Notes under the pieces: model-generated
Seen by the model: only the letters and a program-made list of their open reading frames with translations
The model's database searches: none
What the model was told of the DNA's origin: nothing
Shown here: piece after piece, positions 10,801-61,855 of the stretch
Layout: the number at the start of each line of letters is the position of its first letter
How positions within the stretch are numbered: position 1 is the stretch's first letter
Program-made: the position numbers and the translations under genes
Origin: Acorus gramineus
Lineage: Eukaryota > Streptophyta > Magnoliopsida > Acorales > Acoraceae
Direction of reading: 5' to 3'
Length of the DNA: 64,000 nucleotides
NCBI GenBank assembly: GCA_030737835.1
Contig: JAUJYN010000012.1
Location: 10,712,729-10,776,728, forward strand

Positions 10801-13800
10801 GTTCTGATAAACTGGTTTTTCCATATACTATTATATTTTAAGTGGTACCATCTACTTTCAAAAATAGAAAATGGAGGATCTTGAGCTTCTGAAATTATTA
10901 TCAATGCTAATTTGATTTAAACTTCAATTTTCTAATTTTATAAGCCAAATTGAAATGAAGCTCCTTGTTCAATGAGTTGTGCACTTTTGGAAGTCTCTCT
11001 ATCATTTATTACTATATACTTATTTGAAATGGAAAAGCTGTAAAGTAACAGCTTGCTAAAGCTCTAATTAGCCATCTGAAGACCTACTTTCTTATGAAGA
11101 TGTTGCACTACAGAGAGAATTTGGTTAGTGAAGGGCACGTTACAAAGTCAACAAATAAAGATTTTTGCTTTTTTCTCAAGAAAAATGGGCCACCAAGAGA
11201 GACACATAGTGAAATGATTAATACTACTAAAACTAGACCATTATGTCTTCTATGTTTGTCTATGACCATGCAAGTGAAACAATCTTGTATAGATGCATAT
11301 ATCTAGTCTAATTTTTTTTTTTTTACGTTTCCTATCGTCTTCTACCCAGAAAGAAATTGAAGAGAGGGGCAAGCATCTATGCTCTGTTGTCTATGGTTCT
11401 TTGCCGCCAGAAACACGAACAAGACAGGTATTTCCTTATCTTCATTCTTCTAAAGATACTTGCGTGTGTATGTACCATTGTGTACTTTGTGTATGTAATT
11501 TTTCTAATTTTAGTTCTTGATGTTATTAGAATCTCTTATAAGAACCATAATTTATTCCTTTGATCTGTGTATTTGTGCTCTAAATAATGATGCATTCTAT
11601 TTAAATAATAACGAGTTGATATTTGATAATGATGAAGGGTAGGGTAGTATTAAGGAAAAAAATAATTTGTTTTCACTTTTTAAGTCATGCACTTGTATAG
11701 TTGCGTGCATGACATGGGAAAAGTAAACACAAAGTTTCGGTGGTGGTATTTCTCCTTCAGGAAATTTCTATATTGGGTGAAAAGGAAGAATAAATGATGT
11801 TCATCTCTTTTTTTATGAAATGGTTCGCATCGAACTTGAACTTTATTAAATAATAAGAAGATAATGCCCAAAACAGTAAAAATGTGAACAACCCCCCCCT
11901 CCCAAACCAAAAAATAAAAACTTCCACAGAAGCTGTTCTATTGATAGTCCAACCCAATCCCCAACAATACACATACTATTGGGTTACGATTCATCCCCCA
12001 CCCCCGCTGAATATATCACCCTTTTTGCCCCATTACAACATCGACTCGGTCTTTCACAAAACATAGCATTATCATGTCCTCCCAATTGTTTTCCGCATAC
12101 GGTATTGCTTCCTTAAATAAGGATTTGTTGCATGTGATCCATAACACCACACCACCGTCGATACCAATCACTGCGATATCTTTGGCTTTATACTTCTGTC
12201 CCTGTTCTTACCCTCCTCCTTGCTTCCCCCATACTATCCATGGATGTGAAATCCGCCGCTATCCCTGTCACTTCACCTGGAAGACTACAAATGTGAAGAG
12301 CCATTGAGCAGAGGACAAATAGATGCTCCATAGTTTCATTTTATTCATTGCATAACACAAAAACCAAGTATTCCCTGGGGTCCACTTTGCTCTGTTGGTC
12401 TTAGTCAATAGCTTGTCAAAGACATCTTCCACATAAACACTTTCACTTTCAGAGGTATCTTAATTCCTTGCACCTCCCTTGAATTTTGCACCGTGACCAT
12501 GATCCCCTGTCCCTTTTGTCTCCACCATGTGTAGCACCTCCTCACCGGATGAAGCCCATACTAGGCAGTGGCTTCCGAACCACACTGTCTATAACGTCCT
12601 CCTTTATACCCACCTCTTAAAGCTCTAAGATAAGTGCATAAAAAATAACCACCACTTCATCGTGCATATTCCTTTTTAGCTAGATGTCCTAGTGTTCCCC
12701 ATCCTCTCCTCTGACCCATAATTTATTAACCCTCCATCCTTATCCAATGCCAACTCAAACATCCTTGGGAACCTTGTCTTCCGCGGAATGTCACCTAGCC
12801 AAACTTTGTGCCATAAGAAGATCTTTGCTCCAACACCCATCTCCATTGGATTGCATCGTTGGAACCTGCACCTGAGGCCAAGATACGTTTCCAAATCTTG
12901 GAGAGTCTCAAAGATATCCTTGGTAATCTTTTCACATGTGCATTGCTATGTCTGTATCTCCCACCACCCTGCACCAGAGCATGCATTTGTCCTCCAACCA
13001 GCGCCACAATCATTTGCGTGGGAGAGCCTTGTTCATCCTCAAGGTTAAGAATGCCGCTACATGTTGTTTTACTGCTTCAGTTGATGACCCATTTGACAAG
13101 ATGAACCTTTCTACCATCTTCATGTGCACCATTAGAAACCGCTTTTGAATCCCATCCGGTCTACTAAGGATGCCCTTCGGGATTTTTAAAATCGATAGAA
13201 AGAAAATGGGAAGATTGGCCTAAACCGCCTGGATAAGCACGTCTCCCTCTAAAGCTTGAAAAGTTGCTTTTCCACCCTTTCAATTTTCTTTCAAATATGC
13301 TGATGAGTGACATCCAATATGGACTTATGAAAAGTTTCCTAGATGAAGGGGGAGATCCAAGTGATGAGCGGGAAAAGACTCTACCCTGCAACCAAAGACC
13401 TTGACCAAGTTACTGAATCCTATGCCATCCACATGAATGCTCAACATAGAACACTTGCTGAAATTAATATGCAAACATAATAGGAACTCAAAACATTTGC
13501 AAACCATCTTCTCCCCCTGAATAACATCCTTCTCAACTTTGAAAAAAATCCCTGAATCATCAGCATATTGAACGTGCGAGACAAATGATCCTTCAGGACC
13601 ACACCTCAAGCCTCTCTCCAAACCATCCTCCTCTGCCATCCTCATCATCCTACTGAAAGCGTTAGTCACTACAAAATAAAGGGGGGAGAGGGCATCACCT
13701 TGCCGTAGTCCCTCATTCCAATGGAAGAAACCACTGGGCTTTCCATTTACCAACAGTGATGCTTTCACTGAAGAGATACAATTCTGAACCATCTGCATCC

Positions 13801-16800
13801 AGTTTGACTCAAAATCATGGCAAACCAACAAGTGAAGCAAGAAGTCTCATTTGACATTGTTGTACACCTTCGAGAAGCCCAACTTAATTATGATCCCCTT
13901 TGTTTTATTGCAATGTACTGTCGAGATATATTCTTGGACTGCCTTGAAATCATCTTGCAAAAATCTCCTCATTTTTTCCACCAACTCTCCAATGGCCACC
14001 TTAAACCCGTTCACCAACACCTTCACAATCTGCTTATGGCCATTGACCAAGCTTATTGGTTTGCACTTTGAAGTCCCCCACCTCCACTACTCCCTCCTCC
14101 TTGCTTTGTTTCTTGCCTCTCTTTTTTCTTCCAATAGTTGTCCAGCCCCCTCCCACACATCAAAAATGCCAATTCAGCTGTCAAGCTGCTCTATGTACAT
14201 GCTTGGTTGGAAGGGCTGATGTTGATCAAACCCTGCTCTTGCAATCCTGTCCGAGAAGTCTGTGATCTTCCCCGAAATAGTACACACATGTTTCTATCTT
14301 ACACGATCCTCGTAACATTAAATTTGCCAGTGATGCCAAGGCAAATTCCACAACATTGCATGGGATGTGTCATATTGGGCCCTATACTCTCGAGCACACC
14401 CATTGACCCAATGCTAAAGAATCACAGATAAGGAGAATCAACCCATGGAAATATCAATATGTTTCCAATTGAGGGCATCCCAAATAATAGAATGCCCCCA
14501 AAAGCACCGACCTCTGGTTTGACTACAAATTCAAACAATCTTCTTGCAACAATCTCTCTCATGTCACCCTAACTTATCTCCTCAACCCACCTGAATGTTC
14601 TTTAAACAATATACTTGATTGTTGCCTACTTCCGAGGGTCATTGAGACACCGAACATTCCATCAAAGTTCCCTATCCATCACTTAGGCCTCCCTCTTTGT
14701 CTTCGGAGGATTCCTAAGGCCGAATGGATGCCGCTTGTTAGCCGTTTTGAGAAATGGCTGGAGGGGTGGAAAAGCAGGTTTCTCAGCTTTGGAGGAAAGA
14801 TCACATTGTTGCAATCCGTTTTCTCCAATTACCCATTTATTTTCTGTCGATGTTCTGGGTTCCCAAGGGGATTCTCCAAGTTATTGATGGTATTGGACGG
14901 CGGTTCCTTTGGAATGGTGCGAAGGAGGCCAAGAATCGGGTTCATCTGGTGAAGTGGGAGACGGTTTGCAGTGGTAAGAAGGAGGGGGGCGCAGGGATTT
15001 TGAACCTTGAAGATATGAATAGGGCACTGCTTATGAAGTGGCTTTGGAGATGGTTGGTCAACCCAAGACTAATCTGGGGCAGTTTGATTGCGGAGAGGTA
15101 CGGCTGTGGTGCATTTCCGGCAGCCCTCTTTCCACGTGCTATCGGGTCCCTTTCTGGTATTTGGAAAGGGATCATAGCGGGGCATGAGGAGTTCTATGAG
15201 GCTACAAGGGTTTGGAGAGTAAATTCGTTTTTGGGAGGATGTGTGGATTGGGGTGTCTTCATTGCGTGCTCGCTTCTCACTAATCTTGCAAATTGTTATA
15301 GTGAAAGAGGGTCTGGCCCGCCTCTTCTGGCTGGGGAGGGGAGAGATGGGGTATTGGGATGTGCGGGTCGAGGGGTATCTCCAACTCCTCAAGGAGCTTC
15401 ATGGTGTGCGGGTGATAGAAGGGAGTTCGGACTGTCTTGTATGGAAGCCTAGGCCTACGATGGGGTTCTCGGTGAAAAGTTGCTATGCTTAGGTGTGTCG
15501 AGGTAGTCTTGGGCTTCCGGTGTTGGCCAAGAAACACAAGGAGGTGCTAGGGGGGGGGGGGGGGGGTGGTTGGTAAGGTTCCTTTGAAGGTAAAAGCCTT
15601 TCTTTGGACATTTTATCAAGAAAAAGTTCTCACAAAGACGTTTGTGGCTCGTTGGATGCCGGAGCTGGGTAGGAGGTGTGTTTTTTGTGGGGTTGAGGAG
15701 GAAACCGTGGTGCATTTATTTCTATTGTGCCCGGTTGCATGAGAGCTGTGGGGGAAGATGTCGGCCATCAGGGGTTTGGGAGGGCCGATATCTACCCTCG
15801 AGGAGCTGTGGGAGGTGGGGAGGAGGCTAAGAACTCCAAGTGACAGAAGCATTCGCGTGAAAGTGACCCAATCTTTCATTCCGGTGATCGTCTAGTTGAT
15901 TTAGTTGACTAGGAACCATGCGGTTTTTTGTGGGAGCACTCCTTATGTGGAAAATATTTGGGAAAATGTGGTGTGTTGCGTGGAGGATTGGGGTTGATTT
16001 TGTGCGGGGACAAGTTCTATTAGGGGGGGGGAGGGCCTTGTTATTACAATGTAGTATGTGGAATATTGAGCTTGAGCTTGGCTGGTCCGTATGAAGAGAC
16101 CTCCTCTTTATTGGACAGGCAAAGCTGAGTTGGATGTTGCGTTTGGTGTTTTGGCATTGTATTTCCCTATTGGGCATTCTCTCTGATTTATAAAATTTGA
16201 GGGCAATTGCCTATCGTTTCTTCAAAAAAAAATTCCATCAAAGTATCTTTAACATGACAACAGCCTACTCCCTTCACCATCCACCTCATACAACCGTGCT
16301 CTAGCACTCCCACCACCTGAGGTTGAATATGAACCTCCCCATGAACAATCTAGGAAATGCATCAAATATGAATACCCTAAATCGTGCTATTCTTTGTTCA
16401 TGATATACTGGCCAATCCCCTAAGACTTCCTGCAAGATGGGGATCCTCTGAATTGTTCCATAGGTTTCGCCCATGATTTGACCACCTCCTCCCCACACAC
16501 GTCTGAATTCACGGAATCACCCTAATCTCTTGTGTGGCTCCACCCCTGATCTTCCTATTGTACCCTGCTCTTTGCCCCTTGACAGTCATTGCCACCGTCA
16601 CATGAACCACCTAACGAAATTTGAATGTGATCCAGCCTCCCCACCACCACAAATTTGTTCCTTCTATGTCTTGAGTATACCATAGGGAACGGGTGCACAA
16701 GGGTTTGCAAAAAAGGAGGGGGAAAATTTCACGTGTATTCATATATAAACCCCCATCCGAGAGCGAAGGAGAGTTCTCACCTGCTCCTCGGGTTGGATCC

Positions 16801-35094: not shown

Positions 35095-38000
35095 TCAGAA
35101 CTGAGCAAGAACTATCACTACTGTAATGAAAAAGGCAATCTTATCAACTATAAACTTTGAAGTGCCTTTGCTTTGGGAACCTGATGGTCCCAACGCTTGA
35201 GTTGTCAGGCCACTGGTTGAATTCGACCCAGTGCTGTTGAGAAGAACAACAGATATGTTATTAAGCCATTTAAAATATGTGAAGATTGATTAGTTGATCA
35301 AGAGAAAAAGCTTGAGATTAGTTACACATACCTCCCAGTGAAAACACACGAACCATAGCCTGCAAGGAGTACCACAACAGGAATCAATACGGATATTACA
35401 ATCAATTATTCAACATGTTGTGTAGGTGTGCTTTTGTGTAGACGTGCTTTTATTTAGACGATGAACACCTAAGGATTAAAAATCACAAGGTCCGACAAAA
35501 ACAGCACCTATGAAGCACTGACACTTCAATTAACATGATGTGTCAGTGACCAACACATATCAGACGTAGAACACAACATGACCCTGTTGGACATGTATTA
35601 CACAACATGACATTTAGGTGGCACAACATTATAAATTTTTTCCCCTTAATAACCAATATTGATGTTTATCATACTTATATCAACTTTTTATAATTTGTGG
35701 TTGTGTGCTCTTTTTTTCATATAATCATTATAACATAACATATATTGTCCATTTATATTTTCATTGTTGTGTCTTTCCATATCTGTCTGTGTCCTAATTT
35801 TGCTAATCACCGTGGTTCGATCACATCGTATCGTGTCTGTATCCCATGTCACCAAGAAAGTAACAATGAATTTTTTAAATTTACTTTTATTAATAAGAGG
35901 ACCACAACAACATTATAAAATCCATTATGTTCAGTAGATTAGCTGATTGTATTTTTTGATGAGTTCTAAATTGATGCACGCTTTATGAATAATCTCACAG
36001 ATGAGAATATGAGTCAGAGGATCAAGTGAAACAGATTAATGAGATGTTCCAGAATTGACACCAAAAAGTGGGCATGAACAGGATCTTCAGATCTATTAGC
36101 ATTTACAAAAGATACCAGAGTCCATATAACTATGATAGAATTGTTGTATAACCAGTTAACAGAGAAAATGTGAGAATCATTACTGCTCATATATACTTCT
36201 CAAACGCTTTTTATTTCTTCTTCAAGATAAATCATGAAGATCAGAGGTGCTTTTCATGTTAAAACAACTGTTTTTTTTATAATATAACTCAACAATGCTA
36301 TCTAATTGACCAATATATAACCATATAATGAGTGTTCAAAAGGAGAACAAGAATCTTACTTGGATCTGTTTTTGTAAGCATGGCAGTATTACCAAAGTTG
36401 CAAGTTCCACCAGCTGATTGCGTTCTCTGGTAATAATCATTGTAGGCATACGATGCATGATTCGAGTAAGTATTTGGTTCGAAACATGGATTCCCAGGTT
36501 GAATGGCAGTGCAGTTTGCCGAACCAATACCACAAGCCCAGTCCAAGCCAGTCTTCAGCGCGCTTTGGTCTGCATCGCTCTTGGCCACACAGAACACCCC
36601 ACTCGCTGTGGAGTTTGCCTGTGTATTCTCGACACCACTGAAACTTAATGAATACACAGCCGTTTCGTTTTGAAAGAATAAGCCCCAGTTCTTCTCTGAC
36701 GTGCGTCCGGGACGTAGATCTTCATTGAAAAGCTCAAAAATATATGTATTGATGGCCATATTTGGCTGACTAGGTGGGCCTGATCCATTCAGCACACGCT
36801 GAATGAGGTTGTCATTGTATATCCTTGCATTGTCTACTGTTGCGTCGGGCTCATCGCTCCCACCTAGTGAAGGCCATCCTGTCTCCGTCACAACAACCGG
36901 AATTCCTGTGAAATTTAGGGCTGCAATTGAATAATATGCAGCATCAACCATGGAATCAAACATGCTATTGTAGTGAAAAAGTGTGTTGGGGTCAACAATC
37001 TGCTTATTTGGGGTGAGTGCTTCAAAAAGCGCATATTCAATCGGGAAGATCCCCCCTGCACTACTGTATCCATAATAAGGTTGTGCATTTAACATGAAGA
37101 AGGATCCCGTGTTCTTTAGAAACTGAAGATACTGTTGCATTGTGGAGTTCCAAGTTGAGTTAAAGGCAGCGGTCGATGGAGGGAATGGCTTTGGGATCAC
37201 ACCCATAGAATGAGGGCTTGAAATTTTGACTTGGAAATTCAGATTCGAGGCTACGAGGGCAGAATGGAGAAATTGCATCGCTAGGACGAGGACCGGAGCT
37301 GCGTTTGGGATTGAAGTGAGGACTTCACTTCCAACACCGATTGCGGTGATGTTGGTGGAGGGAACATAGGCTGCTACATTTTTGGTAATCCAATCTGCTG
37401 CTGCTGTCTTGGACTGTCCGACTCTTAGAAGTTCAGAGTTTTGAAGGCCTACCATAACCTCGATGCCTGTGTTTGCAAAGGCATTGAGCATGTTATGGTC
37501 TGCGTCAACTAGACGAACATGGGTGATTTTCTGTGCTTGAAGGATTGCCACTACGTCTGATGCAGATGGCACAGTGGACATGTCGGTGCCGATGTTGATT
37601 CCAACAAACACACCTGCATAGAAAGCGATTTCAAAGTAAACTAAGATTCAGTCTCGAGAGGTAAACAAATCAACCCATGTACAAATGGAAAGAAACTTAA
37701 CATGAATGATATCATGAAGAGAGAAGTTAGTAACAGCATAATACAAAGAGATGGCTTAATTGATGTACCCAAATAAGATGAAAAAAATGTGCTCCAATCA
37801 ATGCAACCATAACTAGTCAACTCAAAATCCTAAATTCAAATCTTATCCTTAAGAATTACTGAAAATATCAATTTAAATTCAATAATTATATGATTTTTTC
37901 TCTTGGAAACCTAGGACACAACTCAAACAACATTTATTATATAATACATTTACATATATATAATGAACATAATTTTTGTTTATTTATTTTGAATACAAGT

Positions 38001-53371: not shown

Positions 53372-53592
53372 GGTCAAAGTCCAAGAAAAAACAGAAAAAA
53401 GACCCGAACTAGAATTGGTCGTTACTCTCTTTTTTTTGACAATCACAATGGTCTTTACAGATGACACCTAAATTTAGATAGTATATATAAGGATGAGCAC
53501 ATTAACAAAGGTTAATACACAAGTAGAGCAAAGCAAAACAGATACAGAAGAGAAGAGCTTTAATTAGTTTTCATTTTCATTATTGATAATCA
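53372..53592 (+). promoter_or_regulatory. Promoter and leader of peptide gene 1
   Basis: W-box cores at 53372-53377 (ggtcaa, reverse TTGACC) and 53436-53440 (ttgac), a TATA box at 53483-53490 (atatataa), then a leader (gagcaaagcaaaacagatac) shared with genes 2 and 3. The ATG is about 100 bases after the TATA box. Confidence 0.6.
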
Positions 53593-53835
53593 ATGGCACT
53601 GAAGAAGTCTGATACGACACCACCTATGAATGCAAGATTGAAGATCCGCAGACGAAGAAGAAGAGCTTCAGCAAAGCGTCCTCAACCTCCAACGCCGAGC
53701 AAAGGGAGTCCACCGCAGCACAACAGCGTCCCAAACACTGTTGCCCGATCAACTACGCAAATATTGAAAGCCAAAGCTCCCGTCACATCCCCAAAAAAGA
53801 AGCCGAGCCCGGGAACACCTCCGCAGCACAGCTGA
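53593..53835 (+). CDS. PROPEP-like small basic protein, copy 1 (80 aa), two Pep-like motifs
   Basis: Single-exon gene. The ATG is the first in a leader conserved in all three copies. There is no signal peptide or membrane segment. Residues 19-25 are an Arg run. Motif 1 is SKGSPPQHN (36-44), followed by SVPNTVARSTTQ; motif 2 is the C-terminus SPGTPPQHS (72-80), where the last Asn of the other copies is Ser. Known plant elicitor peptides end in SSGRPGQHN-like sequences and come from precursors that also lack signal peptides and are cut next to basic residues. The likeness, including NSVPN after the motif in Arabidopsis Pep2, supports a PROPEP relation. The missing second Gly and the doubled motif are unusual. 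CLE-like (GPxPxHN) is the main alternative. This is the most divergent copy; damage-signalling is inference. Confidence 0.6.
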   Translation: MALKKSDTTPPMNARLKIRRRRRRASAKRPQPPTPSKGSPPQHNSVPNTVARSTTQILKAKAPVTSPKKKPSPGTPPQHS

Positions 53836-54044
53836 AATCCGGAGGAATGCTGTAACCCTCAGCAGCCGCAAAACATGTTGTACAATCTCTAGCTAGGTTT
53901 CAGTGTTGAGATCTGTTACATTTCCTTTCAATAACAATATATATACATGGTTGGAATTTTTTAATATTTTATATGATTGATGCCATTTGAATATATACTC
54001 CACTTTTTATAAAATGCATAACTCATTAGACTAGGTATATGTGA

Positions 54045-54336
54045 TTTTTAAGAGGGTTTTTTATTTTTAAGTCTCCACAAATCATAGAACTTAGTGATCC
54101 CTCACTTCTTCATATTTTGGTTTTAGTCCCCAGATTTAAAGAATATGTTTCTTTTTAATCCCTGGGAGAGACATATTCCTAAATTATTTGGTTTTATTTT
54201 TAGTCCCTGAGAGGAACTAAAAAAGAATATATCCTTTAAATTTGGAGACTCAAACCAAAATATAAAGAAGTGAGTGATCGATTACTAAATCTTATGGTTT
54301 ATGGAGACTTAAAAATAAAAAAACCCTTTCTAAAAA
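54045..54336. mobile_element. Foldback MITE
   Basis: Two arms of about 130 bases mirror each other: left agggttttttatttttaagt, right (complement) agggtttttttatttttaag, then both continue through a tttggt(t/t) and atttaaag(g)atat segment. It sits inside a copy of the dispersed AT-rich repeat, whose halves lie at about 53980-54044 and 54337-54400. Confidence 0.8.
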
Positions 54337-54813
54337 TATGAAAATATGTGTACTCTGTATGTTGAACTGTAAAATGAACTAAGCATAATATTTTCCTTGG
54401 GTGTTGGGCAGTGATCACGTGGGCGTTGATAAAGACCATCCTCATGGTGCAAATTTGAGTGAAAAAAAAAATGTATGGTTGAATTGGGAGTTTTTGTTTG
54501 GTTGGTTTGTTGTGAGGTTGTTATGTGAGTTTGGATCATCTGCTTGTTATTTTTGTGTTTGAATTTCATCATGAGAAATGTGTGATCTATATATATTTCA
54601 TTTGATGAATTTTGAGATAAAATAATTATTAATTCTCATCATTCCTCCACTGCTTAATTTTAACATGCTAATGTGGCATCCTTATATTGAAAGTCAAACA
54701 TAATCCAAACATAAAAAAAACAAGCAGATGATCCAATTCCCATCATAATGTAATGGTAGAATTGGAAAAAGATGAGTTGTTGAGGACCATGAGGAGACGG
54801 GTTTGGATCCTCT

Positions 54814-54850
54814 CACTACAAGAAATTTGGGTTTCGGTAGTGGTTTTAAT
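54814..54850 (+). mobile_element. Possible CACTA element terminus
   Basis: cactacaagaaatttgggtt is the typical outer end of plant CACTA (En/Spm) elements. Only one end is seen, so it is a fragment or coincidence. Confidence 0.4.
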
Positions 54851-54879
54851 TTACTACGGTTTGATGAAACGTAGGTATG

Positions 54880-55140
54880 AAGTTGTCTTATTAGGTCTTT
54901 ATTTTATTTTTTTATTTTACAAAGTCTTCCAGTGATTTTTTGGACCCTCGTATATATTCTTGTTAATTCAATAGTTGACCTGATTATTTAAAAAAAAAAC
55001 ATTACTAAGAATAGACCAGATCATCAGTGCACCCGGTCAAAGTTTCAGTGTAATTGAATGGAAAATTTTCATACTGTGTTGAGATTTTCATTAGATGGAT
55101 GACATGAGTGAATAATTTAATCAATATGCTTAATTCAACC
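54880..55140. repeat. Segmental duplication block X, copy 1
   Basis: Collinear with about 57540-57800 and 63290-63500: tttacaaagtcttccagtg, tttttggacc, ttgttaattcaat(a/t)gttgac, gagtagacca-like, gcacccggtcaaag, gagattttcattagatggat. It lies upstream of peptide gene 2. Confidence 0.75.
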
Positions 55141-55800
55141 ACTATATCTTAATCGGGTTAGGTCCAACGCGCGTTGAACAATTGAATTATCCAACGAGAT
55201 CATGATCGTCCGATCTTATAAAGACATTATGACTTAGATATCTTATCAGATTTCAAAATTAAAATTAAAAACAATTAAATTCTAATTTTTCCATTTTTAG
55301 AATTCAATTAAACTTTGTATATCAAAAGTAATAAAATCGGGGTAAATAGACGGAAGTAGCCTTCCCAGCTCGATCGTAAGGTCAGCCATAGGGGGTCCCT
55401 CCGATATAAAAAAATAAATAAATGATAAAATCGGTTGATTACGATCATATTTGACAATCAAATTGTCCATCGTGCGTTGAACCTAACCACTATGTGATTA
55501 TTGTTGATTATGAAAAAATATAAAGATTGTAATTAAAAGTTGATCCCACTAAGATAAATTATTGGCTTCGCCACTGTTTCAATATATTTAATTACGTTCT
55601 AAAATCGTGTATATTTAATTATTATACATAGCCTTCATTATGTAGTATACATGTAAATGATGTAAGAAAAAGAATTATAAGTACATACTCTGCATAAAAA
55701 CAAAACATCCAGTTCTGACTTTCAAACCCCTACTCGTCAGAAATGTTTGAACCTTGAAACCAGTGGCACACCATTTGAAAAAAGACCCGATCGAACGAGA

Positions 55801-55976
55801 ATTGGTCGTTACACGGCATTCCTCACACTCTTTTGACAAGCACAATATTGGTCTTCACAAATGACACCTAACTTTTGAGAGTATATAAAGATGAGCACAT
55901 GCGTTAACAAAGGTTAAGACACAGTTGTAGAGCAAAGCAAAACCGATACAGAAGAGAAGAGCTTTAGTTTTAATCA
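55801..55976 (+). promoter_or_regulatory. Promoter and leader of peptide gene 2
   Basis: Nearly identical to 59461-59632. A W-box core ttgac is at 55833-55837 and a TATA box (tatataaag) at 55882-55890. The leader gagcaaagcaaaaccgatac follows. Confidence 0.65.
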
Positions 55977-56201
55977 ATGGAGCCAGTACTGATGAAGAAG
56001 CCTATTAATACACCACCAGCTATGAATGCAACATTGATCCGCAGACGACGAAAAGCTGGTTCAGTAATAAGGCGTCCTCAACCTGCAAAGCCGAGTCCAG
56101 GGAGCCCTCCGCAGCACAACAGCATCCCAAACGCTGTTGCCCGATCAACTACGCAATTATTGAAGAAACCGAGCCCGGGAACACCTCCGCAGCACAATTG
56201 A
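55977..56201 (+). CDS. PROPEP-like small basic protein, copy 2 (74 aa), two Pep-like motifs
   Basis: Single exon, no signal peptide. N-terminus MEPVLMKKPINTPPAMNATL, then an Arg run (22-25) and a second basic pair before motif 1, SPGSPPQHN (40-48), followed by SIPNAVARSTTQ; motif 2 SPGTPPQHN (66-74) is the exact C-terminus. Compared with copy 3 (59633), it has seven extra residues before motif 1, one fewer near residue 9 and two fewer before motif 2. All length changes are whole codons, while flanking DNA has non-triplet indels, a sign of selection on the frame. The 3' flank is also shared with copy 3. Best reading: precursor of two elicitor-like peptides released next to basic residues; inference only. 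Confidence 0.65.
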   Translation: MEPVLMKKPINTPPAMNATLIRRRRKAGSVIRRPQPAKPSPGSPPQHNSIPNAVARSTTQLLKKPSPGTPPQHN

Positions 56202-57080
56202 GCTATGATAGAGACCATCTCCAGCTGGAGGTGCAGATTTTAGTGAAAAACTTAATTAATGTATGGTTGATTTGGAAGGAGTTTTTAATGTGTAGTGATT
56301 GCTGATTTATTCTTTTGTCCATCAAGAAAATTCAATGGAAGGATTTATTATTTTATGAAACAAATTTGGATATTCCTACTGCGATTTTATTTATGAATGA
56401 AGCGGTACTTGTGAAGCACAAGCTAATCTTTCTATAATTTCTTTTTTTTTTTTTCCTTCGAAAATATTCAGAGTCAGCTTGATCAATTATAGAATTTAAG
56501 TCCATCTCCATAAATTTTCTCTTTTGATGAGAACGTCAAGAACGACATTCACGATCAAGTTCTTGTCGTTCTCGTCAAAGCTATAATTTTGAGCGTTCAT
56601 TTTCTGCTTGTATGATCATTAGTTGGTAATGCATTGCTGATTCATTTTTCATTTTTAGTAAATTGGATCTTGTATTTTCATTTGTCATCTTTTCAGTCTC
56701 TAATGTTTGTTTCTCGATTTCCTTAAGCAATAGATTCAAAAGCGTGATTCTTCTCAGCCATCTATCTCTTTCTCATCTTTCTTTCTTCTCAACCATTGGA
56801 TAGAATATGTGTTGGATAGAGTGAAAGACAAAATAATACAATATATTGGATAGAGTATGTAAATCATTTTTCATGATCTCATATAAATCAGGGGCCCCAT
56901 ATATCAAATCTTTTTCTTCATCTTTTGTAAAATTGCAATGCAATTCTCATTTACATTTTATATATACTGGAATAGTTTATGTCGATCGCTAACTAAAAAC
57001 ACAAACTAAACGGAAAAGAAAAGAGGACTTATTTTTTATATATACTGAAATAACTTATGAAAATTGCCTAAGTTTGAACC

Positions 57081-59109
57081 ATATGAAATGTGGAGGAATG
57101 TCTGAATTTTGACATGTTATGAGCCTTTGTTTAGAGTTGTTCTAACTATGCTATGCATGGGATATGTCCAGCCATGTGTGCAGTTTCATCTGCAACTTTC
57201 ATTGGTTTCCTTTTGTGAAAATATATACATTTGTCTATTGAAATAAATATTATTATAAAAAATAAATTATAAAACTTAGATACTTTATTGTATTTTATAA
57301 AAAATTCATATATAATGATTGTGCAGTATACGTAGAATAATGTATAAGGAGTAATCTAAAGCTGTAAATGAAACTGTAAAACAGACTGGATATTTTAAAG
57401 CTGCACATGATATGAATGGTTGTGGCAACTGACGCTCGAAGTCAATCCCGTCAGCTGAAATTGAACAAGTGATGGAGTGAATTGAACAAGTGATGGAGTG
57501 ATGTCTATTCTGATATTATATATATGTTGGTCGAAGTGTATGAAGTTGTCTTTTTATTTTATTTTATTTTTTACAAAGTCTTCCAGTGGTTTTTTGGACC
57601 AGAGAAACCCACGTTTATATAGTTCTTATTAATTCAATTGTTAACCTGATTATTTTAAAATTTTACTATAAGAGTAGACCACATCTTCATTGCACCCGGT
57701 CAAAGCTTCAATGTAACTGATATGGTGCATACTGCGTTGAGATTTTCATTAGATGGATGACATGAGTGCACAATTTAATCAATACGCTTAATTCAACCAC
57801 TAAATATCCTGTGGGGAATACATCCGCATTAAATATTTCTAATTATATTTTTATAACAAAAATATATGGGTTACCAAACTTAGGGCTCATCTGAGGGTAG
57901 AGTAGCATCTTTCTTGGGTGAATTTTTGTTTAGCTAAAAAAAAATAATTATAGATGAAGAAATTATCTGTTCATTTTAATTAAGATCGCTGTGATTTAGA
58001 TTTTTTTTACAGTCTCAAATATACTCTCATATTTCTCATTAGTCCCTTCCATTCACTGTGATGAGATATATGACTCGTTCATATATAATTTTTACAATTT
58101 TTTTTTATAAATGATAATATTTAATTCATTGGAGTATATACTTCACATTTTATAAAAGTATATACCTTATTAAAGAAGATATATGTACAAAAATAAAACA
58201 TGGTGAACTGCGTTTGGGATTGGAAATTAAATGAGATAGAGTGTAATATTTTCCATTAATAAAAACAGTTTTGGTTATTTTAAAATTCTTGATTAGATTA
58301 TTGAAATGCTTGGCCGATAACATTTTGGAAATGATATGTTTAGCCTCTTTGCACCCCCCATCTGTAGACCATACCATCGGGTTTTTTTTTTTAAAAAAAA
58401 ATTATACTTTCTTCTATTAAAGTACATATTATTATATAAAATGCTATATATATTGATATGCAATAGTATATTTTTTCTTTGAAAAAATAAAAAAAAATTC
58501 TCCATATACAGGCTATTTGTTGTGTATGAGTTTATAGACGGAACTGTAAAATAGACTGAATGTATCAGTACTTTTACTTTACTAAATTAATGTTTTTCTG
58601 AGTGGAAGGTAGACGTTACTGAATTAATGTTAGTTTATTAAAATAACAAAAACGACACCATCAATTTTCTAAACTGTTGCCAAACAGATGAAACGAACAA
58701 GCGAAATATTTCATTGATGGAAGTCAGAATTGTGTCACACATGAACACTTATTTATTAAAATATTATCAACCAAACACTTATTTATTAAAATAATATCAG
58801 CCATACACTTCTTTATTACTAAAACATTTACTGAAAAATTATTAGTCAAACACAAGTTCAGCCATCATTAACCAGCTATATACCCATACCCACAGATTAA
58901 TTTGCGAAACCAATATTGTGTGTTTTGGAAAAATTAATAGATTTATTTAGATACTTTACTTATTAATAATTAGTTTTAATTATTGATTAAAGTGTTGACA
59001 TTGATGTTTAGTATTGCATTTTTAGATTTATTTTAGTTCTTGTTTGGTTTAAACACAGCTTATTTAGATAAAAAATATTATCAAGGGCCACTACTGTTTG
59101 TTTGGGACA
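57081..59109. other. Spacer between peptide genes 2 and 3
   Basis: Holds duplication block X copy 2 (about 57400-58760) and a dispersed-repeat copy near 58050-58330. No gene seen. Confidence 0.5.
57400..58760. repeat. Segmental duplication block X extended, copy 2
   Basis: Collinear with 63120-64000: gatatgaatggttgt, tctgatatta, tttacaaag(t/a)c, accatcaattttctgaactg-like, and catt gatggaagt(c/t)agaattgtgtcaca. It lies directly upstream of peptide gene 3. Confidence 0.75.
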
Positions 59110-59439
59110 GTGACACAGTGTGCCTTCACATCCCAACGTTATTATTGTTGATTATGGAAAAATAAAAAGATTGTAATTAAAAATTGATCCCACTGAGATA
59201 AAGTATTGGCTTCGCCACTGTTTGAATATATTTAATTATGTTCTAAAATCGTGTATATCTAATTATTATACATATCCTTAATTATAGTATACAAGCATGT
59301 AAGAAAAAAAAAATTATGAGTATACACTCTGCATAAAAACAAAACATCCACTAGCATTCCGTGGTCAAAACACATGCAAGTGTCTTAACCATATATGCAC
59401 CACATGATATCAGTGCGTACGTGGCACACCATTTGAAAT

Positions 59440-59632
59440 GGTCAAAGGGCCCGAACTAGAATTGGTCGTTACACGGCATTCCTCACACTCTTTTGACAAG
59501 CACAATATTGGTCTTCACAAATGACACCTAACTTTTGAGAGTATATAAAGATGAGCACATTAACAAAGGTTAAGACACAATTGTAGAGCAAAGAAAAACA
59601 GATACAAAAGACAAGAGCTTTAGTTTAAATCA
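59440..59632 (+). promoter_or_regulatory. Promoter and leader of peptide gene 3
   Basis: W-box ggtcaa (59440-59445, reverse TTGACC) and ttgac core (59493-59497), TATA box tatataaag (59542-59550), then the shared leader. W-boxes are bound by WRKY factors in defence genes; binding here is inferred. Confidence 0.65.
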
Positions 59633-59845
59633 ATGGCGCCAGTACTGATGAAGAAGGCTATTATTAATACACCACCAGCTTTGAATGCAACTTTGATCCG
59701 CAGGCGAAGGCGTCCTCAACCTACAAAGCCGAGTCCAGGGACTCCTCCGCAGCACAACAGCATCCCAAACGCTGTTGCCCGATCAACTACGCAATTATTG
59801 GAAGCCAAAACTCCGAGCCCGGGAACACCTCCGCAGCACAACTGA
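59633..59845 (+). CDS. PROPEP-like small basic protein, copy 3 (70 aa), two Pep-like motifs
   Basis: Single exon, shortest copy. N-terminus MAPVLMKKAIINTPPALNAT, Arg run 23-27 just before PQPTKP, motif 1 SPGTPPQHN (34-42) followed by SIPNAVARSTTQLL, motif 2 SPGTPPQHN (62-70) ending the protein. The two motifs are identical here, so both could give the same active end. No signal peptide, no cysteines, no membrane segment. Compared with Pep consensus (S-x-G-x-x-G-x-x-N), Ser, first Gly and Asn are kept and the second Gly is Pro. Neighbouring copies and shared promoter suggest co-regulated duplicates. CLE, CEP and unrelated proline-rich proteins were considered; the SIPNA/SVPNA continuation favours PROPEP. 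Confidence 0.65.
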   Translation: MAPVLMKKAIINTPPALNATLIRRRRRPQPTKPSPGTPPQHNSIPNAVARSTTQLLEAKTPSPGTPPQHN

Positions 59846-60671: not shown

Positions 60672-60929
60672 TCAAAGGCTAGCAGAAATGGTTGATTGAA
60701 GTATGGATTCTTCAACAAGGCCTGCCTCAATTTTTCCATTGTCATCCTTGATCACAGTAGGTTCACGAGGCACATTCACTTCTTTTGCTCGTACAATATT
60801 GGCTCCTCTGGACTGGAGGTGTTTGTTGTGCTGTGGAGGATCTCCTCTGCTAGTATTCATCATCATCATATGGTTCCTGGTACATATACATATTAGAAAC
60901 AAATGAAATATTTTTTTATGAATTCTCAA
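60672..60929 (-). CDS. Unrecognised ORF with an SRGDPPQHN segment
   Basis: The minus-strand frame of 85 residues holds SRGDPPQHN, matching S-x-G-x-PPQHN of the three array genes, followed by KHLQSRGANIVRAKE and an acidic C-terminal part. It does not end at the motif and no shared promoter precedes it. The first Met codons (MMMMNTS) are equally possible starts, or this may be an exon. Whether it is a gene is unknown. Confidence 0.25.
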   Translation of the reverse strand: MRIHKKIFHLFLICICTRNHMMMMNTSRGDPPQHNKHLQSRGANIVRAKEVNVPREPTVIKDDNGKIEAGLVEESILQSTISASL

Positions 60930-61855
60930 TTGATGAATCTACATGAAGTGATTGAACACATGCTTAACTGTTTATTAAGGATAGAAGTGATGGGACTGAA
61001 AAAAGAAAGCTTACATGGATATAGAAGTTTGAGACATATTAACTGTGGATCGTGGAGAGACTGTAGAGTGGCTTGGCTAAGTACACAAAACATGAGCACA
61101 TACATATAGGGAGGGAGGGGCACTTGATTTGAGTGGTGTTGTAAAGTCGATTAAGATAGTTAGCTCGAATTTGAAGAACTGAAATTCCTCGTATTAGATA
61201 AATGATGGTAGATCGCAATGTAACAAGTTCTCATTATATTAGGTTTGGTTAGGCATATATTTATTTTTATTTTTTTACAAAGTCGTCCAATGGTTTTGAC
61301 TTTTAGACCAAAGAATTCCTGAAATCCTTTTTTTCATTTGTAAATTCTATTTTTGGATGAGTGTTTTAAAACCCAATCTAATAATCGGGTTGATTGAACT
61401 GATTAAATCTTCACCTTCTTTAATTTGAATTATAGTTCGATTCATTATAAAAGCAATAAAAATCAATCAATCTATCGGTTCGAACCGAGTATTGGTTGAT
61501 TTAACCGAATTGTTCTTTATTCATAAAAATCACAATAAATTACTTATGAAAATATTAAATCAAATAAAATATTTAATTTTAATAATAAAATCATATTATG
61601 ATGTTAAATAAAAGCTTAAAAGTATTAAAACTTAAAATTTGATAATTCTACAAACATTTTCTAAAATATTTCATTTTTTATAAATTTATTTATTTAGTAA
61701 TAATAATTTATTTATTTATTATTTCATGATGATATCATGGTTCAAATTCAATTAATCCAAGATTGAACCTTGACCATTAATCTGTTTATTTTTTAAGTTA
61801 AGTGAGCGATTTGACTTGAGTATTGGAGTCCCCTTGACCGACACCACACTGGTGT

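Follow-up and report, generated by a model that had tools for sequence, protein, structure and literature searches.

A six-gene tandem array in Acorus gramineus of probable PROPEP-type precursors, each with two Pep-like units

What is encoded by the small basic open reading frames that recur in a 64,000-nucleotide stretch of the Acorus gramineus nuclear genome (contig JAUJYN010000012.1, positions 10,712,729 to 10,776,728, forward strand; hereafter the window), and can a single precursor of plant elicitor peptides (Peps) carry two of them? A sequence-only reading of the window had described three such genes as relatives of PROPEPs, the Pep precursors, with two peptides in each. The duplication that it described is real and larger than claimed: six PROPEP-like genes lie on one strand in a tandem array of 24.0 kb on contig C32 of the 398.6-Mb genome. 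Genes A, B and C are unbroken frames on the plus strand within the window, and a DNA search together with a reading of the region placed A2, D and B2 beyond its end on the same strand, at C32:10778089, 10787781 and 10790051. A whole-genome search with protein C matched the six array genes alone. The genes are probably leaderless PROPEP-type precursors of Peps. Their resemblance to the family is well supported, and their function we infer. The proposed kinship holds up because a matrix of published Peps, an alignment that runs into the AtPep2 tail, the leaderless basic form of the precursors, the basic residues before the motif, the tandem arrangement and the presence of genes resembling the Pep receptor kinases (PEPRs) in the same genome all point to it. 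What appears to be new is the presence of two Pep units in a predicted single-exon precursor, unlike the PROPEPs described in the literature examined; Pro at the place of the second Gly and PROPEP arrays of six genes were already known. The genes and motifs in the window are as follows.

53593..53835, plus strand: gene A (open reading frame), predicted single-exon precursor of 80 amino acids with two Pep-like motifs, the second ending PPQHS
53698..53724, plus strand: gene A motif 1, SKGSPPQHN, ending 15 amino acids past the last Arg of the basic run
53806..53832, plus strand: gene A motif 2, SPGTPPQHS, the exact C-terminus, with a terminal Ser replacing Asn
55977..56201, plus strand: gene B (open reading frame), predicted single-exon precursor of 74 amino acids with two Pep-like motifs
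56094..56120, plus strand: gene B motif 1, SPGSPPQHN, followed by NSIPNA (NSVPNA in AtPep2)
56172..56198, plus strand: gene B motif 2, SPGTPPQHN, the exact C-terminus
59633..59845, plus strand: gene C (open reading frame), predicted single-exon precursor of 70 amino acids with two Pep-like motifs
59732..59758, plus strand: gene C motif 1, SPGTPPQHN
59816..59842, plus strand: gene C motif 2, SPGTPPQHN, the exact C-terminus

All six proteins are small (70-80 amino acids), have runs of Arg and a net charge of +9 to +18, and contain exactly two copies of SxGxPPQH(N/S), the second of which is the exact C-terminus in every case. A single C-terminal Pep is the usual state of PROPEPs, although not their definition; here two units are found in 6 of 6. 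A signal-peptide core is absent from the six, as judged by hydropathy only, because the most hydrophobic 9-residue stretch of the first 48 residues does not exceed a mean Kyte-Doolittle value of 1.4. Open frames, hydropathy and motif counts thus bear out what had been read for the three window genes: intact, leaderless, basic frames with Arg runs and two motifs each, one of them C-terminal. Of the Pep signature SxGxxxxxN, SxG is present in all 12 motifs and the terminal Asn in 11. Within the window, motif 1 ends in Asn in A, B and C, and motif 2 does so in B and C; the proposed ending PPQH(N/S) therefore stands throughout, with the final Ser confined to motif 2 of A (window 53830-53832). Since A2, a near twin of A with a coding part 98% identical, keeps Asn where A alone has Ser, unit 2 may be failing in A. 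The tail NSIPNA, also claimed earlier, follows motif 1 in B and C; in A it is NSVPNT.

The likeness to known Peps was scored with a 10-column matrix built from 11 published Peps, namely eight AtPeps (PMC4304247, PMC10902123), StPep1 (PMC12734062) and two Prunus Peps (PMC5782389). Over 273,062 windows of a 294-kb neighbourhood, 11 of the 12 array motifs take ranks 1-11, with scores of 18.8-20.5, and rank 12 falls to a motif on the opposite strand, considered below. Motif 2 of A, which ends in Ser, ranks 20, behind seven unrelated windows. When each published Pep was left out in turn, the three non-Brassicaceae Peps scored 13.2-15.7 and the eight AtPeps 19.0-28.5. In a shuffle test, proteins A, B, C and D of the six were compared with AtPep1, AtPep2 and AtPep3 of the eight AtPeps, with 5000 shuffles each; the AtPep2 score was reached by one shuffle for A, one for B and none for C or D. 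The alignment of gene D with AtPep2 (KPSPGSPPQHNSIPNAAV / KPSSGRPGQTNSVPNAAI), matched by 0 of 5000 shuffles, passes beyond the motif into the tail, NSIPNAAV facing NSVPNAAI.

The residues shared are those that matter in AtPep1. Its last 15 residues suffice for activity, with S15, G17 and N23 being important, and modelling gives P19, Q21 and H22 an important role in the PEPR1-BAK1 interaction, although such key residues are perhaps dispensable for Pep activity in general (PMC4526913). Equivalents of all six are present in 11 of the 12 array motifs, N23 being absent from motif 2 of A. The motif is also rare. In the 294-kb neighbourhood, SxGxPPQH(N/S) has 12 occurrences in the six genes and a single one on the other strand; 60 order-3 Markov versions of that neighbourhood have none. 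Genome-wide, GxPPQHN is found 14 times (the backward control pattern once): 11 times in the six genes, once antisense inside the array and twice elsewhere. One of the latter, at C4:24251770, is a 9-residue frame in which LRGLPPQHN is followed by a stop, and the other, at C5:7355675, is in a 75-amino-acid frame that looks, by eye, antisense to a pentatricopeptide repeat (PPR)-like gene. Both look accidental and were taken as chance matches, although a very small final exon is conceivable for the first.

Candidate receptors are present in the same genome. Two tandem PEPR-like receptor kinase genes, L042 and L043, lie 7 kb apart at G000:C3:21049270-21062198. AtPEPR1 served as the query, and 41 candidates out of 1,649 from a first look were scored. 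The pair were the two strongest single matches, one with 738 bits (48% identity) and the other with 572 bits (49%) together with 330 bits (47%); the strongest match apart from them reached 535 bits (38% identity). The ectodomains are about 48% identical to that of AtPEPR1 (300/619 for L042 and 327/682 for L043), and the leucine-rich repeat (LRR) domains of AtPEPR1 and SlPEPR1 are 47.6% identical (PMC4526913). L043, the one of the two tested against solved structures, matches PEPR1 best (610 bits), followed by GSO1 (557). In the alignment made, L042 is without several LRRs that L043 has, in frame and towards the N-terminal side; the gap overlaps the region of LRR4-LRR18, the stretch of AtPEPR1 that binds Pep1 (PMC4526913). 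No PEPR gene adjoins the array within the 294 kb.

Are the genes maintained as coding sequences? The six frames are intact and their indels preserve the frame. Across the six copies the residue is invariant in 15 of 18 motif codon columns, as against 22 of 68 outside the motifs (24 of the 68 gapped). In all 15 pairs the coding part is more conserved than the 200 bp past the stop (for instance, A/A2 0.98 against 0.85, B/B2 0.98 against 0.88, B/C 0.96 against 0.93). The ratio of nonsynonymous to synonymous change (dN/dS) is 0.23-0.93 inside the group of B, C, D and B2, and A/A2 is without synonymous change. The genes also share promoter-like signals. All six copies have a TATA box 91-111 bp upstream of the ATG and, 140-157 bp upstream of it, a TTGAC W-box core; the strict W-box, TTGAC(C/T), occurs within 500 bp in five, B being excepted, against a background of 0.55 per 500 bp. 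PROPEP2 and PROPEP3 are reportedly under WRKY control. A single-exon structure, read from DNA signals, fits the genes because the conserved TATA box adjoins the ATG at this distance. In the window the signals are as follows.

53436..53440, plus strand: gene A W-box core TTGAC, kept in all six copies
53482..53487, plus strand: gene A TATA box, kept in all six copies
55833..55837, plus strand: gene B W-box core TTGAC
55882..55887, plus strand: gene B TATA box
59493..59497, plus strand: gene C W-box core TTGAC
59542..59547, plus strand: gene C TATA box

Several observations weigh against a PROPEP identity. A 23-column hidden Markov model of published Peps finds the array weakly (E 0.024 for C, 0.66 for A2 and between 1 and 45 for the remaining four), and unrelated open reading frames are interleaved among the matches. 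The AtPep1 score was reached by 27, 10, 0 and 2 of the 5000 shuffles for A, B, C and D, respectively, and the AtPep3 score by 1, 380, 49 and 62. Outside the motif, the likeness to known PROPEPs amounts to the short NS(I/V)PNA tail of AtPep2 alone. In a study of Rosaceae, the Pep and the N-terminal part of PROPEP genes are in two exons, an arrangement that does not define the family (PMC5782389); here the Pep does not have its own exon, the DNA giving one exon. Lastly, constraint is shown for the motifs and not for the spacers: no strong constraint emerges outside the motifs, because dN/dS is 0.87-1.09 between the A group and the B/C/D/B2 group and, in 6 of 15 pairs, conservation is higher over the 100 bp upstream of the ATG than over the coding part (e.g. 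0.95 against 0.86 for A/B).

The explanation that best survives beside a two-peptide precursor is a sub-case that overlaps it: the genes are PROPEP relatives in which one unit works, either the C-terminal one or the inner one, and the other is a relic of duplication. The doubling itself is compatible with an internal duplication, because codon identity between the units exceeds the expectation of an even codon draw: where both units of a gene share a residue (7-10 places), 5-7 of the codons are identical, and 2.2-3.4 would be expected. Counted from the last Arg, motif 1 is complete after 15 amino acids in 6 of 6, whereas motif 2 is complete after anything from 18 to 40. The sequence VAR|STTQ stands between the units in five of the six copies; gene D has lost that Arg and retains a Lys pair before motif 2. 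Both features suit a relic, as does motif 2 of A, which is without the terminal Asn whose deletion cripples AtPep1 (PMC4526913). However, both units are kept in all six genes, 15 of the 18 motif columns are invariant and motif 2 is the exact C-terminus in every copy, and we consider this explanation rather unlikely.

A second explanation, to our mind distinctly improbable, is that the array encodes basic nuclear or nucleic-acid-binding proteins specific to this lineage, with no hormone role, and that the Pep likeness is a convergence of a short Pro-rich string. The proteins are indeed very basic and Pro-rich, and the likeness rests on about 18 residues. The model of the gene C precursor has a low mean predicted local distance difference test (pLDDT) value of 65 and is mostly coil, with helices at 15-25 and 52-57; since it was built without an alignment, it is weak evidence for disorder, although the precursors are probably disordered. 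When solved structures were searched by sequence at E 10, neither gene C nor AtPep1 itself had a match. What such convergence would leave to coincidence is that the matching residues are those important in AtPep1 (PMC4526913), that the likeness runs into the AtPep2 tail, and that the string clusters in the array genome-wide.

Membership of another small peptide family (CLE, RGF/GLV, IDA/PIP or CEP) is very unlikely, although HN or H is the ending of their products too. RGF/GLV peptides end in PPxHN, which counts in favour of such an origin, and start with a sulfated Tyr (DY); CLE, RGF and CEP precursors carry an N-terminal signal peptide. So do IDA/IDL and PIP/PIPL precursors, of which PIP2, PIP3 and PIPL1 have two motifs per precursor like the array genes (PMC4526919). 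The six array proteins, however, have no signal-peptide core on the hydropathy measure, no Tyr as in RGF/GLV and no SGPS as in PIP, and CLE, RGF and PIP membership was rejected on these grounds. Nor did placement in a family such as CLE, which the sequence-only reading had named as contrary evidence, come about: at E 10, Pfam assigned A and C to no family and B to a spurious CD52 (E 1.4). Least credible of all is that the copies are repeats, either non-coding or pseudogenes, whose open frames arose by chance, since the repeat-rich flanks, the between-group dN/dS near 1 and the conserved stretch before the ATG, which would suit them, are met by six intact frames with frame-preserving indels, by conserved TATA, ATG and stop, and by coding parts more conserved than the sequence past the stop in every pair.

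The array also holds a gene model on the opposite strand, 0.8 kb after gene C, drawn from splice signals.

61015..61037, minus strand: coding part of exon 1 of the antisense model (splice signals only), with a gtaagc donor after it
60672..60876, minus strand: exon 2 of the antisense model (splice signals), giving with exon 1 a protein of 75 amino acids, with SRGDPPQHN at 60825-60851

The predicted protein has one motif near its N-terminus and an unrelated tail of 50 amino acids; a whole-genome search found no other match to it, and Pfam at E 10 nothing meaningful. A link of this gene with the array, uncertain in nature, is likely because only 0.00012 background matches to GxPPQHN are expected in the array span, as calculated from the two background matches genome-wide.

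If the array genes are PROPEPs, a scheme for their action can be drawn from known Peps. Stress would switch the genes on through the WRKY-type promoter elements. The AtMC4 metacaspase cuts PROPEP1, which is predicted to be largely unstructured, after Arg69 (PMC13157962), and a basic, metacaspase-type site is likewise predicted before the first Pep unit, given the Arg run and the motif 1 end 15 amino acids downstream of its last Arg. Upon wounding, Ca2+-activated type II metacaspases might cut after that Arg and release a peptide beginning with PQP, in which motif 1 is complete at residue 15; the C-terminal Pep could be freed by another cut, at VAR|STTQ in five of the six copies or after Lys. 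In AtPep2, AtPep4 and AtPep5 there are residues past the motif Asn (PMC4304247, PMC10902123), so that a free end is not required of the inner unit; it might act while still joined to its NS(I/V)PN tail, as AtPep2 does, or after trimming. The candidate units for perception are PQPTKPSPGTPPQHN and STTQLLEAKTPSPGTPPQHN. The PEPR-like kinases of the plant would sense both, two ligand units coming from each precursor, and amplify immune signalling. That both units are released and active seems to us slightly less probable than the contrary. A still more elaborate possibility is a bivalent Pep system, in which two ligands per single-exon precursor (an inner one at a fixed 15 residues and a longer C-terminal one) meet two tandem PEPR-like receptors, the peptides or receptors have split roles, and the antisense gene is a seventh ligand gene of different architecture; as a joint claim this is speculative and improbable.

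If the two-unit precursors are confirmed, Pep precursors are not bound to the pattern of one peptide and two exons, and searches restricted to C-terminal units of the last exon would miss part of such genes. Leaderless precursors with two peptides would raise the ligand dose per damaged cell. The array would also offer natural material for asking whether the C-terminal Asn of a Pep has to be free and how metacaspases pick their sites, and it makes joint divergence of PROPEP and PEPR testable with short synthetic peptides.

Other features of the region were noted in passing. Between A2 and D, at C32:10783218-10784547, units of roughly 0.4 kb are repeated in tandem, the best copies being about 95% identical. 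In the window, positions 13325-15452 have open reading frames like remnants of a non-LTR (long terminal repeat) retrotransposon reverse transcriptase, as judged by eye, and 36298-37647 on the minus strand holds a beta-1,3-glucanase-like gene with a glycosyl hydrolase family 17 and an X8 domain.

How does the array compare with named systems? As the sequence-only reading had supposed, the double form appears to be undescribed: no doubled PROPEP is among the matches listed, judged by titles and abstract openings. The string PPQHN is in no paper's text searched, most subscription journals and figures, where many Pep sequences are given, being outside that scope. Arabidopsis PROPEP2/AtPep2 shares with the array the core and tail KPSxGxPxQxNS(I/V)PNA, including residues past the motif, but has one Pep unit, PGQTN instead of PPQHN, and an end 13 residues past the motif Asn (SVPNAAIQVYKED). 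StPep1 of Solanaceae (ATERRGRPPSRPKVGSGPPPQNN) shares an Arg followed by a Pro-rich lead, Pro 19 and 20, Gln 21 and the terminal Asn, and differs in having Gly instead of Ser at 15, a final NN instead of HN, and one unit (PMC12734062). Pro in place of the second Gly, proposed earlier as a mark of the array, is present but not distinctive, as StPep1 ends GSGPPPQNN and thus already has Pro there (PMC12734062). Tandem arrangement also has precedents: Arabidopsis PROPEPs form two tandem groups, and rice OsPROPEP2/6/5/3/7/4 are likewise six tandem genes, in a locus spanned by deletions of up to 32.3 kb (PMC10600118). The excerpted rice description, by which alone the two arrays are compared, does not mention doubling (PMC10600118). 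Two peptide motifs per precursor are shared with Arabidopsis PIP2, PIP3 and PIPL1, which differ from the array proteins in their signal peptides and SGPS core (PMC4526919).

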